Source of the DNA: Tannerella sp.
Lineage (GTDB): Bacteria > Bacteroidota > Bacteroidia > Bacteroidales > Tannerellaceae
Length of the DNA stretch: 37,639 nt
NCBI GenBank assembly: GCA_031265585.1
Contig: JAISCL010000329.1
Coordinates: 1 to 37,639, forward strand
Reading direction: 5' to 3'
Shown here: positions 8,400 to 14,932 of the stretch, piece by piece
How positions within the stretch are numbered: position 1 is the stretch's first letter
Layout: each line of letters starts with the position of its first letter
The notes under the pieces: model-generated
Told to the model about the DNA's origin: nothing
The model's input: the letters and a program-made list of their open reading frames with translations, nothing else
Databases searched by the model: none
Translations under genes and position numbers: made by a program

Positions 8400-9032
8400 A
8401 TGCAAAGTAAAGGAAACGAACTGATAACGCTTGCACAGCGTATACGGGCGCTGAACCGGACGGCCCTGGCATATTCAACAAACGAGTATGAGATAGACCG
8501 CAGCAAGGAACTGATCGAAATAAGCGACCGGATAACGTCGATCGTGAGCGGCGTGGAGGAAGAGGAAATCCGCGCCTGTTATCATCCGGCGAAAGAGTAT
8601 GTAACGCCGAAAGTGGATATACGCGCCGTTATTTTCAACCGGAAGGAGGAAATCCTGCTTGTCCGGGAAAAGTCGGACGGACGCTGGGCGCTGCCGGGCG
8701 GATGGTCTGATGTGGGATACACGCCGACCGAAGTAGCCGTCAAGGAAACAAAGGAAGAGACCGGGCTGGATGTACGCGTTGTGAGGCTACTGGCCGTTTT
8801 GGACAAACGCTGTTACAGTCATCCTTCAAGCCCGTTCTATGTCTATAAGTTTTGCTTCTTATGCGAGGCTACCGGAGGCAATGACGAACTGACGTTCGAT
8901 ATCCTTGATAAAGGCTTTTTCGCCCCCGATAACCTGCCTCCACTGTCGCTTGACCGCATCCTTCCGGAACAGATCGCATTGCTGGACAAACTGCGGCGTG
9001 ACCCGGACGGCAGCAGGGTCTACTGCGATTAA
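8400..9032 (+). CDS. NUDIX hydrolase with N-terminal helical domain
   Basis: 210 aa; NUDIX box [26 protein letters not shown]. Confidence 0.9.
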
Positions 9033-9078
9033 AACACAGCTTCACAGCCGGGAAAACAAATAAAATCGGCCCGTTTAT

Positions 9079-9109
9079 TTTGTACAGCACCCGACTTGTA
9101 TTATCTTTG
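9079..9109 (+). promoter_or_regulatory. Promoter of the biotin operon leader
   Basis: TTTG (9079-9082), exactly 19 bp, TATCTTTG (9102-9109): full match to the Bacteroidetes -33/-7 consensus. Predicted start about 9115. Confidence 0.7.
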
Positions 9110-9131
9110 CGGCCACATTCAAAAAGAACAG

Positions 9132-9515
9132 ATGAGAAAAACGACGAAAATACAACAGCCGGTTATTTACTTCCGCCGATGGTCGCGGAAGGCGTATGCT
9201 GCGTTTTGCAGTATCGGACGCTGTGTTTCGATCGGGCGGCTTCGGAAGAATGTCGCCGAGGCTTCTTTGAAGAAACAGAAAGCCGGCTGTTCCTTCACCC
9301 GGGAATTGACCGGAAGAACGAATGCCGGAGAGGAGGCGGAGGAACCGGATCCCCTCACGCAACGGCTGACGGTCGTGATTCATTCGCCGGCGGCGGTCGA
9401 GGCCGGGGGCGGGAGCGGCGAGGTAGCTTTAGTTGGAGTAAACCGGAAAAGTATTATGGAACCGGTTGGATGCAGCGTGCTGTATCCGGCCGGTTTTTTT
9501 TATTTATATCACTAA
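9132..9515 (+). CDS. Small leader ORF with TonB-receptor-extension-like N-terminus
   Basis: [49 protein letters not shown]... starts about 17 nt after the predicted transcription start. The first ~48 aa look coding; the C-terminal part, which runs into the terminator, is less convincing. Confidence 0.4.
9460..9501 (+). terminator. Strong intrinsic terminator/attenuator upstream of bioB
   Basis: ACCGGTTGGATGCAGC-gt-GCTGTATCCGGCCGGT, about 15-bp stem with three G-U pairs, then TTTTTTTT. Confidence 0.8.
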
Positions 9516-9529
9516 AAAACAGTAACTGT

Positions 9530-10480
9530 ATGATTAACGGGATGAAAAATCGGATCCTGGCAGGGGGCGCAATATCGCCTGAAGAGGCGTTGCAAGTGGC
9601 TCTAAGCCCGGATAAAGAGAAAGTGTATGAAGCGTCGCACGAAATAACCGTCCGGATGGCTTCGATGAAATTTGACATGTGTTCCATCCTCAATGCCAGG
9701 TCGGGGCGCTGTCCCGAAAACTGCAAATGGTGTGCGCAGTCGGCTCATTACAAGACCACGGCCGATGTTTACGGCGTAGTGGAAAAAGAGGAATGTCTCC
9801 ACCGGGCGCAACACAGCGAACAACAGGGCGTGCACCGTTTCGGACTGGTGACAAGCGGACGGAAGCCCGGTCCGCGGAGCATGGAAAAACTCTGCGAAAA
9901 TCTGCGGTATATAAAAGGCCGTTCATCCATTCAGCTGTGCGCGTCCCTGGGCCTCCTGAACGGGGAAGAACTCCGGCAGGTCAAGGAAGCGGGCGTGAAC
10001 CGCTATCACTGCAACCTGGAGACGGCGCCGTCCTTCTTTCCCCGATTATGCTCCACGCATACCATAGAGGAAAAGATTGAAACGATCAAAGCCGCCCGCA
10101 GAGCAGGACTGCAGGTTTGCAGCGGAGGCATCATCGGCATGGGGGAAACGCTGGAGCAGCGCATCGAATTTGCCTTTGCCCTTAAATCGCTCGACATTCA
10201 GTCGATACCCGTCAACATCCTGCAACCGATACCGGGCACGCCGCTCGAAAACGCCACGCCCCTGACCGAAGAAGAAGTGCTGACCGCGATTGCCCTTTTC
10301 CGCTTTATTAACCCGACCGCCTTCCTGCGCTTCGCCGGAGGAAGATCGCAACTGTCGAAACCGGCCGTCGAAAAAGCGCTCTATACCGGCATCAATTCGG
10401 CAACAGTCGGAGACCTGCTGACAACCGTAGGATCCAAAGTGTCGGAAGATAAACGCATGATTGCAAAATACTACCGGTGA
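9530..10480 (+). CDS. bioB: Biotin synthase (radical SAM)
   Basis: [21 protein letters not shown]...[17 protein letters not shown]...; CxxxCxxC motif present. The ATG at 9530 is preferred because the upstream extension to 9080 contains the promoter and the terminator. Confidence 0.95.
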
Positions 10481-11751
10481 TGACCGACACATTCGACAGA
10501 GATCACCTGTGGCATCCCTACACGTCCATAACCCGTCCCCTGCCCGCATACAAGGTAAAACGCGCAGACGGATGCACGATTGAGCTGGAAGACGGCACGC
10601 GCCTGGTCGACGGCATGTCCTCCTGGTGGTGCGCCGTGCACGGATACAATCACCCGGCGCTCAACGAAGCGGCAAAAAGGCAGATTGACCGGATGTCGCA
10701 CGTGATGTTCGGCGGACTGACACACGATCCGGCGATCCGGCTCGGGAAAAGACTGCTGGCAGTCACGCCCCCTTCCCTGCGGAAAATTTTCTATGCCGAT
10801 TCCGGTTCGGTAGCCGTTGAAGTGGCGCTGAAAATGGCCGTCCAGTACGGATACGCCAAGGGAGGTAAAAAAGACGGCTTCCTCACCATCCGTTCCGGCT
10901 ATCACGGCGATACGTGGAACGCCATGTCGGTCTGCGACCCGCAGACCGGCATGCACCGCATTTTCGGCGCGTCACTCCCGGTGCGTCATTTTGTGCCCGC
11001 CCCTTCCACCGGCTTCTACGATACATGGAATGAGGCCGACATCCTGCCGATGAGGGAAATGATCGAATCACATCACGAAAAACTGGTGGCCGTGATACTG
11101 GAACCGGTCGTACAGGGAGCCGGAGGGATGCGCTTCTATCACCCGGAGTACCTGCGGCAGACGGCGGCTCTATGCAAAAAGCACGGTCTGCTGCTGATTC
11201 TGGACGAAATAGCAACCGGATTCGGACGCACCGGCAAACTGTTTGCCTGCGAGCATGCCGACGTGGAACCCGACATTATGTGTATCGGCAAATCCCTGAC
11301 AGGCGGGTATATGACCCTGTCAGCCGTACTGGCGAACGATGAGGTGGCAAATACCCTGTCCGGCGGCGAACCGGGGGTCTTCATGCACGGCCCGACATTT
11401 ATGGCCAATCCGCTGGCCTGCGCTGTGGCCTGCGCTTCAATCGAACTGCTGCTCTCCCGCGATTACGGCTGGGAGCAGAAGGTGCAAAACATAGAGGCGC
11501 AACTGAAAAGGGAACTGGCGCCTGCCTCCGCACTCCCGCAAGTAAAGGAAGTGCGTGTCCTCGGAGCCATCGGAGTGATTGAAATGAATCATCCGGCAGA
11601 TATGGCTTTTATACAACGCCGCTTTATAGAAGAAGGGGTCTGGGTGAGACCCTTCGGACGACTGGTCTACATCATGCCCCCCTTCATCATCACGCCCGGA
11701 GAACTGACCGTACTGACCGGCGCATTACTGAAAATAATAAAAGAATGTTAG
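10480..11751 (+). CDS. bioA: Adenosylmethionine-8-amino-7-oxononanoate aminotransferase
   Basis: [24 protein letters not shown]...[65 protein letters not shown]. Confidence 0.96.
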
Positions 11752-12893
11752 ACGCATACAAAGAAGAATTACGCCGGCTGGAAGAAAAAAGCAACCTGCG
11801 CAGCCTGCCGGAACTGACACACCGGGGCCGGCATGTCATCAGGCAGGGGATGCGGATGTTGAACCTCTCGTCGAACGACTATCTGGGACTTGCCTCCGAC
11901 CTGTCCCTGAGAAAGGCATTCCTCGAAAGCCTGACGCCGGAAAGTTTCCTCCCCTCTTCCTCCTCTTCCCGCCTGCTGACGGGCAACTTTACGGCAAACA
12001 GCCAGCTGGAAGACCGGCTTTGCCGGCTATCCGGGTCGGAAAACAGCCTGGTATTCAACAGCGGCTATCACATGAATACGGGAATACTGCCCGCCGTCAG
12101 CAACCGGAAAACCCTGATCCTGTCGGATAAGCTGGTTCACGCCAGCCTGATAGACGGCATCCGCCTCTCGCCGGCCGCCGGACACATCCGCTACCGTCAC
12201 CGTCATTACGAACAGTTGGAATCCCTGCTCCGCAAAAACCACAGGGATTACGAACGGATCATTATCGTAACGGAAAGTATTTTCAGCATGGACGGCGATG
12301 AAACGGATCTCCGGAAACTGGTCGCACTGAAAAAGTCATATCCGAACGTGATGCTCTACGTAGACGAAGCGCATGCCATCGGGGTGAGAGGGGCGAAAGG
12401 ACTCGGATGCGCCGAAGAACAGGGATGTATGGCCGATATTGATTTCCTTACCGGGACATTCGGCAAGGCGATCGCTTCTGTCGGCGGATACCTCCTCTGC
12501 CGGAAAGTGATACGCAATTACCTGGTGAACAAAATGAGAACCCTCATCTTCACAACGGCGCTCCCACCCGTCAACCTGATGTGGACGCGCTTCGCGCTGG
12601 AAAAGTCGGCAGGCTACGGCGACAGGCGGGAACACCTGCAAACGGTCAGCCGCCGCCTGCGGGAAGGACTGGCCGCCGGGGGATACAGCTCTCCCTCTAC
12701 CGGTCATATTATCCCGCTCATGACCGGCGACAGCCGGAAAGCGGTGCTGAAAGCGGAAGAAATGCAGCGGAAAGGCTTCTACATGCTCCCCGTACGCCCT
12801 CCGACAGTCCCCGAAGGAACGTCGCGTATCCGCATATCACTGACGGCCTCCGTCCGCATGGAAGAAATTGAAAACCTGATCACCTTATTATGA
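11745..12893 (+). CDS. bioF: 8-amino-7-oxononanoate synthase
   Basis: [70 protein letters not shown]. Confidence 0.95.
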
Positions 12894-13540
12894 TAATCAA
12901 AAAACTGAACTCAGCGAAAGCATCTCCGGAACTGCTGCTCTTCTTTGCCGGCTGGGGCATGGACGAATGTCCGTTCCTGGAATACCTTCCGGCCGGCAGG
13001 GATTGCATGATCTGTTATGATTACCGTTCGCTGTCGTTTGACGCCTCATTGCCGGCGTCTTACCGGCGAATCCGGGTTGTAGCCTGGTCAATGGGCGTAT
13101 GGGCGGCATCCCGGGTGCTGTCCGGACGGAACCTGCCGGTTTCGGAAAGCATCGCCGTCAACGGAACACCCTGGCCGGTAGATGATGAAAAAGGCATTGC
13201 CACGGCCATCTTCCGGGGTACGCTGGCAGGACTGGACGAAACCGCGCTGCAGAAATTCAGAAGGAGAATGTGCGGGTCAAAAGAAGCATGGGAGCATTTC
13301 TTGAAACATGCCCCGCAGCGGACACTCGAGGACCTGCGTGAAGAACTCGACCGGATCGGCCGGTCTTCCCGTACACCGGCGCCCGCTTTCGAGTGGGACA
13401 GAATTTACATCGGCCTGCGGGACAGGATTTTCCTCCCGGCCAGTCAGCAAAGGGCCTGGGAAGGGAAAAACGTTACAAAAGTCGACTGTGATCATTACCC
13501 GTCCACGCTTTGGCCGGAATTATTTAATACCTATGGATAA
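12890..13540 (+). CDS. bioG: Pimeloyl-ACP methyl ester esterase, BioG/DUF452 type
   Basis: LLLFFAGWGMDECPFLEYLPAGRDCMICYDYRSL...RVVAWSMGVWAASRVL; located between bioF and bioC. Confidence 0.92.
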   Translation: MIIKKLNSAKASPELLLFFAGWGMDECPFLEYLPAGRDCMICYDYRSLSFDASLPASYRRIRVVAWSMGVWAASRVLSGRNLPVSESIAVNGTPWPVDDEKGIATAIFRGTLAGLDETALQKFRRRMCGSKEAWEHFLKHAPQRTLEDLREELDRIGRSSRTPAPAFEWDRIYIGLRDRIFLPASQQRAWEGKNVTKVDCDHYPSTLWPELFNTYG

Positions 13541-14297
13541 GGAACTGATCGCCAGCCGTTTTGCAAAAGCCGCGGCAAGCTATGAGGAAGAAGCCGGCGT
13601 ACAGCGACAGATCGCCTGTAAAATGGCGGTCCTCCTCGCCTCGCATGTCCGCACGGAAAACAGGCCGAAGGTCCTGGAAATCGGCTGCGGAACAGGCGTT
13701 TTTTCGCGCCTGCTGATCGGCTTGCTGGATCCCGCATACATGCTCCTCAACGATCTTTGTCCCGGGATGCAGGAACAGTTGAAAGACATCGTAAACGACC
13801 GCATCATCTTCCGCCCCGGTGATGCGGAAACGTGTCCGTTCGAACAGATGAACGAACTGTACGACCTCATAGCTTCCTGCTCTGCCATCCAGTGGTTCGG
13901 GGATCCGGACGCTTTTTTTACACGGATGCACCGGCTGCTGGCGGCGGACGGCCTCTTCGCGTTCAGCACATTCGGGAATGATAACATGAAAGAGATTTCG
14001 TCCCTGACCGGACAAAGCCTGCCGTATTTCTCCCCGGAAGAACTGAAAATGAAACTGGCCGGCCGGTATGACCTCCTGTACATCTCCGAAGAAAGGATTC
14101 CCAAACGATTCAATCATCCGAAAGAGATCCTCTATCACCTGAAACGCACCGGAGTAACCGGCATCAGGCAGCAGCCGTGGACGCGGGCACGCTTCACCCG
14201 CTTTTGCGACGAATACCGTACGCGCTACAGCCATCAGGGAGAAGTCATACTGACGTATCATCCGGTTTATATCATTGCACAAAAGAAAAGAATATGA
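13533..14297 (+). CDS. bioC: Malonyl-ACP O-methyltransferase
   Basis: MDKELIASRFAKAAASYEEEAGVQRQIACKMAVLL...VLEIGCGTGVFSRLL; SAM-methyltransferase motif and operon context. Confidence 0.93.
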   Translation: MDKELIASRFAKAAASYEEEAGVQRQIACKMAVLLASHVRTENRPKVLEIGCGTGVFSRLLIGLLDPAYMLLNDLCPGMQEQLKDIVNDRIIFRPGDAETCPFEQMNELYDLIASCSAIQWFGDPDAFFTRMHRLLAADGLFAFSTFGNDNMKEISSLTGQSLPYFSPEELKMKLAGRYDLLYISEERIPKRFNHPKEILYHLKRTGVTGIRQQPWTRARFTRFCDEYRTRYSHQGEVILTYHPVYIIAQKKRI

Positions 14298-14932
14298 ACG
14301 TATATTTTGTAACAGGCATAGACACAAACACAGGAAAGAGCTATGCAACCGGATACATTGCCCGCCGGTGGAACGAAAAAGGCATCCGCACGATCACCCA
14401 GAAACTGGTACAGACCGGAAACAGCGGCTATTCGGAAGATATCAACCTGCACCGGCAACTGATGCATATCGCTCATACGGAAGAAGACCGGGCCGGACTC
14501 ACGATGCCCGAAATCTTTACCTGTCCGGCATCGCCTCACCTGGCGTCAAAACTGGAGCACCGTCCGATTGATTTTGACCGGATTGACCGGGCCACCCGGA
14601 TATTAAGCCAACGCTACGATGCCGTCCTGCTGGAAGGAGCCGGCGGATTAATGGCGCCACTGACGGAAGACTGTCTGACGGTTGACTATATCAGGGAAAA
14701 ACGATATCCCCTGATCCTGGTCACCTCCGGCCGGCTGGGAAGCATCAATCACACGCTGCTTAGCCTCGAAGCCATAGCCCGGAGAAACCTGAACCTCTAC
14801 ATGGTCGCCTATAACCTCTATCCCGAAACGTCGGATCCGGTCATCCGCAACGACACCCGGCAATTCATAACAAACTACCTGCGCCGCCATTTCCCCGGCA
14901 CCTCTTTAATCGAAATCCCCGTAATGAGTTGA
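14294..14932 (+). CDS. bioD: Dethiobiotin synthetase
   Basis: MNVYFVTGIDTNTGKSYATGYIARRWNEKGIRTITQKLVQTGN...VLLEGAGGLMAPL. Confidence 0.95.
   Translation: MNVYFVTGIDTNTGKSYATGYIARRWNEKGIRTITQKLVQTGNSGYSEDINLHRQLMHIAHTEEDRAGLTMPEIFTCPASPHLASKLEHRPIDFDRIDRATRILSQRYDAVLLEGAGGLMAPLTEDCLTVDYIREKRYPLILVTSGRLGSINHTLLSLEAIARRNLNLYMVAYNLYPETSDPVIRNDTRQFITNYLRRHFPGTSLIEIPVMS

Follow-up and report, generated by a model that had tools for sequence, protein, structure and literature searches.

What function is served by an ORF of 127 aa lying directly 5′ of a complete biotin operon is the question raised by a contig of Tannerella sp. (JAISCL010000329.1), which was analysed over its whole length of 37,639 nt and is referred to below as the window. 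The product of this ORF has no match in Pfam or NCBIfam. The initial annotation had viewed it as an orphaned N-terminal extension of BtuB-like TonB-dependent receptors, which could act as a leader peptide coupling translation to a terminator or could be a small conserved protein in its own right.

The leader ORF and its locus

The coordinates and reading frame first assigned to the ORF were right, the peptide quoted being in frame, and the predicted transcription start lies at about the distance from the ATG that had been given for it (~17 nt). Likewise, neither a signal peptide nor a receptor body was found 3′ of the ORF in the window, where the ORF is followed by bioB (start at 9530). The features of the locus are as follows.

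8400-9032: nudix-family gene, 5′ of the promoter and the leader ORF
9079-9109, + strand: predicted Bacteroidetes-type promoter (TTTG at 9079-9082, 19-nt spacer, TATCTTTG at 9102-9109)
About 9112-9115: predicted transcription start, about 17-20 nt 5′ of the leader ATG
9132-9515, + strand: leader ORF, 127 aa (ATG at 9132, TAA at 9513-9515)
9132-9278, + strand: conserved core of the leader peptide and its extension, residues 1-49 (ending ASLKKQ), from alignment, codon analysis and the match to the receptor profile
9457-9498, + strand: predicted intrinsic terminator hairpin within the leader ORF (-28.3 kcal/mol; eight Ts at 9494-9501)
9530-10480, + strand: bioB, biotin synthase (TIGR00433, 393.8 bits), the first of the putatively regulated genes
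10477-14932, + strand: bioA, bioF, bioG, bioC and bioD, the remaining operon genes

The bioB-A-F-G-C-D operon is thus complete, the leader stop codon and the bioB start are separated by 14 nt, and the terminator falls within the last 20 codons of the leader ORF. A TANNTTTG box was present at most 120 nt 5′ of the leader ATG at 48 of 79 loci, versus 9 of 158 control windows. Neither a tRNA nor an Rfam family was detected in the window. An ORF of 102 codons on the opposite strand (9075-9383, - strand) overlaps the leader and seems to be a by-product of the conserved + frame.

Conservation of the leader peptide

The N-terminal ~48 residues of the leader (FRRWSRKxYAxFxSIGRxVxIGxL...SLxKQ) are kept across the Bacteroidales. 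A tBLASTn search with residues 1-49 against 100 relatives, of the kind that had been suggested for this ORF, returned homologues of two sorts, namely short ORFs of ~120-230 codons, with E-values as low as 2e-22, and a second group made up of the extreme N-termini of TonB receptors of 670-700 aa (1e-5 to 1e-2). Sixteen short forms were aligned, and the alignment was then used for searches of named genomes and of the order as a whole. Matches were obtained in Tannerella, Bacteroides, Parabacteroides, Porphyromonas, Phocaeicola, Prevotellaceae, Odoribacter, Butyricimonas, Breznakibacter, Alistipes and others and, with receptors and fusions counted, in 173 of 392 Bacteroidales genomes. The module is essentially restricted to this order, since only 5 of the 297 genomes in a phylum-wide sample gave a match, two of them outside the Bacteroidales, of which one is weak (E = 4e-4) and the other strong. 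The strong one (locus L188 in genome G720) belongs to another order of the class and could represent a horizontal transfer.

Among 103 distinct sequences, and counting positions from the Trp, residues F(-3), W(0), R(2), F(8), S(10), V(15), I(17) and K(31) each occur in 92-100%, against 83% for G(18); because the named-genome set was collected with the pattern WSRK[GRA]YA[AV]F, the conservation of the nine residues of that pattern is partly imposed, that of the other residues not. In the same sequences synonymous codons vary freely at most of the conserved core residues (Trp having one codon), and AGC is the dominant codon at the first Ser. In comparisons of close pairs, dN/dS was typically about 0.06-0.16 over codons 1-50, versus 0.3-0.6 in the tail past codon 50, with a few pairs outside these ranges. 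That is, the comparison that had been proposed between the two parts of the ORF reveals strong purifying selection on the first and weaker selection on the second. Selection acts on the leader peptide itself and, in turn, suggests that the leader is translated. This selection, the 173 matching genomes and the constant genomic position described below place the motif beyond chance.

Genomic position and the internal terminator

A survey of genomic neighbours, which had also been called for, shows that the position of the module is constant: all of the 102 distinct loci adjoin either a biotin gene (bioB, bioBA, bioA or bioF) or a member of one TonB-receptor family. The leader is a separate ORF at 86 of the 102, and most of these separate leaders have a bio gene directly 3′, mostly bioB, in some cases bioA and in L068 a bioF-containing gene. 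An overlap of 4 nt between the leader stop and the bioB start is frequent among the separate-leader loci.

Using a strict search, and with duplicates not yet removed, a hairpin followed by a T-run was found in 64 of 94 separate leaders, with the ORF entering the hairpin in 60 of these 64 and traversing it in 50. The frame was then evaluated on de-duplicated loci having terminators with dG <= -12 (n = 56). The leader frame is open up to the hairpin start in 52 of the 56, whereas the two other frames reach this point in 4 and 6; it stays open as far as the hairpin end in 44, versus 1 and 5. Terminator sequences vary among species, the constant feature being that the ribosome has to cross the terminator. 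The earlier suggestion that the leader couples translation to a terminator is thereby strengthened, the ORF being conserved, under selection and equipped with a terminator inside it. About a third of the separate leaders had no terminator in the strict search, so some leaders may work by coupling or Rho only. A leader was not detectable in 7 of 25 genomes with bioB (e.g. G064, G068, G072 and G085), and a single minimum-free-energy fold of the window sequence gave no convincing competing antiterminator.

Separate and fused forms of the module

The module exists in two forms, either as a separate ORF with an internal terminator or as a fusion to BioB/BioBA or to the signal peptide of a receptor. 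In B. clarus, B. gallinarum, B. salyersiae and others, ~50 leader residues make up the N-terminus of a BioB-BioA fusion of ~800 aa. Single proteins of this kind, with the leader peptide N-terminal to BioB and BioA, exist in many Bacteroides and are encoded at L042, L043, L045, L053, L054, L058, L072, L073 and L080. At other loci the leader residues are N-terminal on a BioB that measures about 340-430 aa, and a part of the shorter proteins may have been cut or frame-shifted in assembly. No terminator passed the search in L145, the sole fused 5′ region that was scanned; at the fused loci other than L145 the peptide continues straight into BioB.

On the receptor side, the five separate leaders without a nearby bio gene (L091, L094, L108, L124 and L136) all stand directly 5′ of a signature-bearing receptor, and the receptors at these loci have a plain signal peptide without the core motif. 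L147 likewise has a separate leader, with a terminator of -28 kcal/mol, 5′ of a motif-less receptor. At L150 and L188 the leader frame crosses the terminator and continues in frame into the receptor, while L142 is an exception in having a separate leader plus a receptor that also bears the motif. The separate form with its terminator and the fused form therefore alternate in two unrelated gene families, and this interchange is the strongest evidence that the module acts in cis on the expression of whatever lies 3′ of it, rather than as a protein in trans or as a component of the BioB or receptor proteins.

The motif-bearing receptor and its link to biotin

Profile-profile comparison of the leader with the receptor N-termini gave a probability of 99.5% (E = 3.8e-23, 40 columns). 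In the receptor class the core stands directly before the signal peptide, and the receptors share the first ~40 residues only, the SLxKQ end being absent. The resemblance to a BtuB-like pre-signal stretch that had been noticed at the outset therefore reflects real homology, but the receptor is no BtuB equivalog: it belongs to the BtuB-like TonB receptors by family, has a Plug domain and a barrel, and is closest among solved structures to BtuB, yet its TIGR01779 scores of 63-144 bits lie far below the cut-off of 599.7. A link to B12 through BtuB and a cobalamin riboswitch was rejected on this score and because the riboswitch, which it had been advised to look for, was found at none of 20 receptor/leader loci. 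An Rfam match to Acido-Lenti-1 RNA (40.4 bits) was seen 3′ of the receptor gene in L152 (4416-4460).

Several observations point instead to biotin. Two species of one genus (L143 and L144) have an operon in the order leader, bioB, SSS symporter, receptor, and the closest solved relative of the symporter is SMVT, the sodium-dependent multivitamin (biotin) transporter. The symporter gene stands between bioB and the receptor gene in both (L143:3726-7196 for the first operon). BioY was found in none of the 101 genomes searched, which removes it as a candidate inner-membrane partner, and the SMVT-like symporter may be the inner-membrane half of biotin uptake in these BioY-less bacteria. The SSS symporter was discarded as a marker of biotin uptake, being present in 93 of the 101 genomes, in prototrophs and auxotrophs alike; its distribution is thus uninformative, and only its place in the two operons and its similarity to SMVT count. 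In genome G075 (L162:1644-4757) a motif-bearing receptor gene is followed by bioB 73 nt later, and this genome may import a biotin precursor.

Furthermore, 25 of the 101 relatives have bioB and 56 have the receptor, but only 3 have both, versus ~14 expected (Fisher p = 4e-7); within the genus of the window the numbers are 8, 24 and 0 (p = 3e-4), and outside it p = 6e-4, all p values being indicative only since species are non-independent and some assemblies incomplete. The anticorrelation looks as if uptake through the receptor replaces biotin synthesis. From the shared operons, the G075 gene pair, this anticorrelation and the absence of BioY, the receptor is probably the outer-membrane route for biotin or a precursor in auxotrophs.

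Alternative explanations

As the geometry alone yields coupling, the leader could be a translation-coupled attenuator in which the peptide senses no ligand and which reports general translation or the charged-tRNA and amino-acid state, its residues tuning speed, folding or mRNA stability. We consider this unlikely, in that the core is retained on fused proteins without a separate terminator, and the conserved positions are specific residues with free codons and form no run of a single amino acid. There is still less to recommend a free-standing small protein that is encoded by the first operon ORF and acts in trans, for example by binding BirA or biotinylated proteins. Such a protein would agree with the purifying selection and with the operon position, but in both gene families the module always stands 5′ of its target or is joined to it, its tail is variable, and the terminator inside the ORF would be left unexplained.

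Control through a BirA operator was also rejected. In eight relatives, BirA is a ligase of 243-256 aa with the catalytic domain at its start and no DNA-binding domain, and for this reason repression by BirA is unlikely. Loss of the BirA DNA-binding domain together with the regulon has been described for some lineages (PMC5343134). The ligase was not found in the window's own assembly (G000, 91% complete), which is probably a gap, as the relatives tested have one.

Riboswitches commonly govern vitamin genes in bacteria, and together with the AGC dominance at the first Ser this might suggest a riboswitch, or an RNA element bound by a protein, that overlaps the coding sequence and makes the peptide incidental. 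Such an element is highly improbable: there is no Rfam match, the 5′ UTR of ~20 nt leaves no room for an aptamer upstream of the ATG, synonymous codons are free, dN/dS is well below 1, and RNAalifold on the core of 76 diverse sequences gave 0.0 kcal/mol and no common structure, although the very divergent set weakens this last test. Finally, the original view of an orphaned receptor N-terminus is not supported, and an ESPR-like export extension left from a receptor gene, which has in its favour the homology to the stretch 5′ of the receptor signal peptide, is already contradicted and hardly credible, because the separate ORF is widespread, constant in position and under strong selection, the core is kept on cytosolic BioB and BioBA, and receptors behind a separate leader usually have an ordinary signal peptide without the motif.

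Proposed mechanism

We propose that the leader works in cis as a nascent-peptide attenuator of the biotin operon. Ribosomes would start on the leader ORF immediately after transcription initiation, and, if the leader is translated in full, would cross the internal terminator and block the hairpin, so that RNA polymerase continues; those reaching the leader stop codon could then restart on bioB. The conserved core of ~36 residues would most likely act inside the ribosome exit tunnel. When biotin, biotinyl-AMP or another biotin signal is plentiful, the core would arrest or slow the ribosome at roughly codon 40-50; the terminator, some 180 nt further 3′, could then fold, and the bio genes would be off. 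Where the module is fused to BioB/BioBA or to a receptor, arrest would simply block synthesis of that protein.

That the leader is a cis-regulatory leader of the biotin regulon, which is the weaker claim, we hold with good confidence; the full proposal as set out above appears to us fairly probable. It is supported by the selection on the peptide, the frame kept open in 52 of 56 cases, the leader stop overlapping or near bioB, and the location of all 102 loci at bio or receptor genes. Further support comes from the interchange of forms, the short 5′ UTR, the lack of a common RNA fold and a BirA without a DNA-binding domain, as well as from the ties of the receptor to biotin, namely the operons, the anticorrelation with bioB and the absence of BioY. 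It is weakened by the leaders without a terminator, the receptors without the SLxKQ end, the bioB genomes without a leader, and the failure to find BirA in the incomplete assembly of the window genome. More tentatively, with the odds a little against so specific a statement, the ~36 residues could be a biotin-sensing nascent-peptide switch that halts its own ribosome at sufficient biotin and governs the Bacteroidales biotin regulon in interchangeable forms, either separate with an internal terminator or built into the N-termini of BioB/BioBA and of a TonB receptor for biotin.

Relation to known systems

Arrest peptides that sense a small molecule, such as TnaC (PMC8429421), and attenuators are both known kinds of regulators. 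Like TnaC and SpeFL, the biotin leader is a short ORF with residue-specific conservation, and in those systems downstream metabolic genes are controlled via transcription termination (for TnaC, PMC8429421); it differs from them in sequence, taxon and pathway, in having the terminator inside the ORF, and in occurring also fused to the controlled proteins, and arrest and ligand are here postulated. As in the trp and his attenuators, a translated leader would decide terminator formation 5′ of a biosynthetic operon; unlike them, the biotin leader has no run of regulatory codons, biotin being no amino acid, and shows specific conserved residues instead, nor was a convincing antiterminator seen in the one window fold.

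Feedback control of bio genes and uptake would be a feature shared with BirA and BioR repression (PMC5343134), except that the BirA of the relatives has no DNA-binding domain and control by the leader would act on the transcript. The motif-bearing receptor resembles BtuB-type receptors in its domains and closest solved relative, and departs from them in scoring far under the equivalog cut-off, in having no cobalamin riboswitch nearby and in its biotin context. Like the ESPR of autotransporters, the core is a conserved stretch ahead of a signal peptide, but the leader module can also stand alone as an ORF or be joined to proteins that are not exported.

In B. thetaiotaomicron, most mRNAs have a 5′ UTR of 23 nt, and sORFs in long 5′ UTRs have been noted in general as reminiscent of attenuation leaders (PMC7366714). 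A large survey of vitamin metabolism in the gut lists BioY and YigM as transporters of biotin, and no mention of TonB was found in its text (PMC6593275). The literature searched, which covered few subscription journals and preprints, describes neither the leader nor the N-terminal motif, nor does it report a TonB receptor for biotin from the Bacteroidota, and the control of biotin synthesis in Bacteroidales appears to have been undescribed so far.

Implications

If the leader is such a biotin-sensing switch, it would be the missing biotin regulator of the Bacteroidales and, to our knowledge, the first arrest peptide for a vitamin. Should the peptide sense biotin or a derivative in the ribosome, a vitamin would join the few metabolites that nascent chains are known to detect, and the fused forms would illustrate how a sensor of this sort can pass from gene to gene and end up in an enzyme or in a signal peptide. 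Models of gut communities give a central place to biotin auxotrophy and sharing, so that naming a receptor matters, and the leader and the receptor are concrete, testable candidates for the biotin regulator and the outer-membrane biotin receptor of these bacteria.
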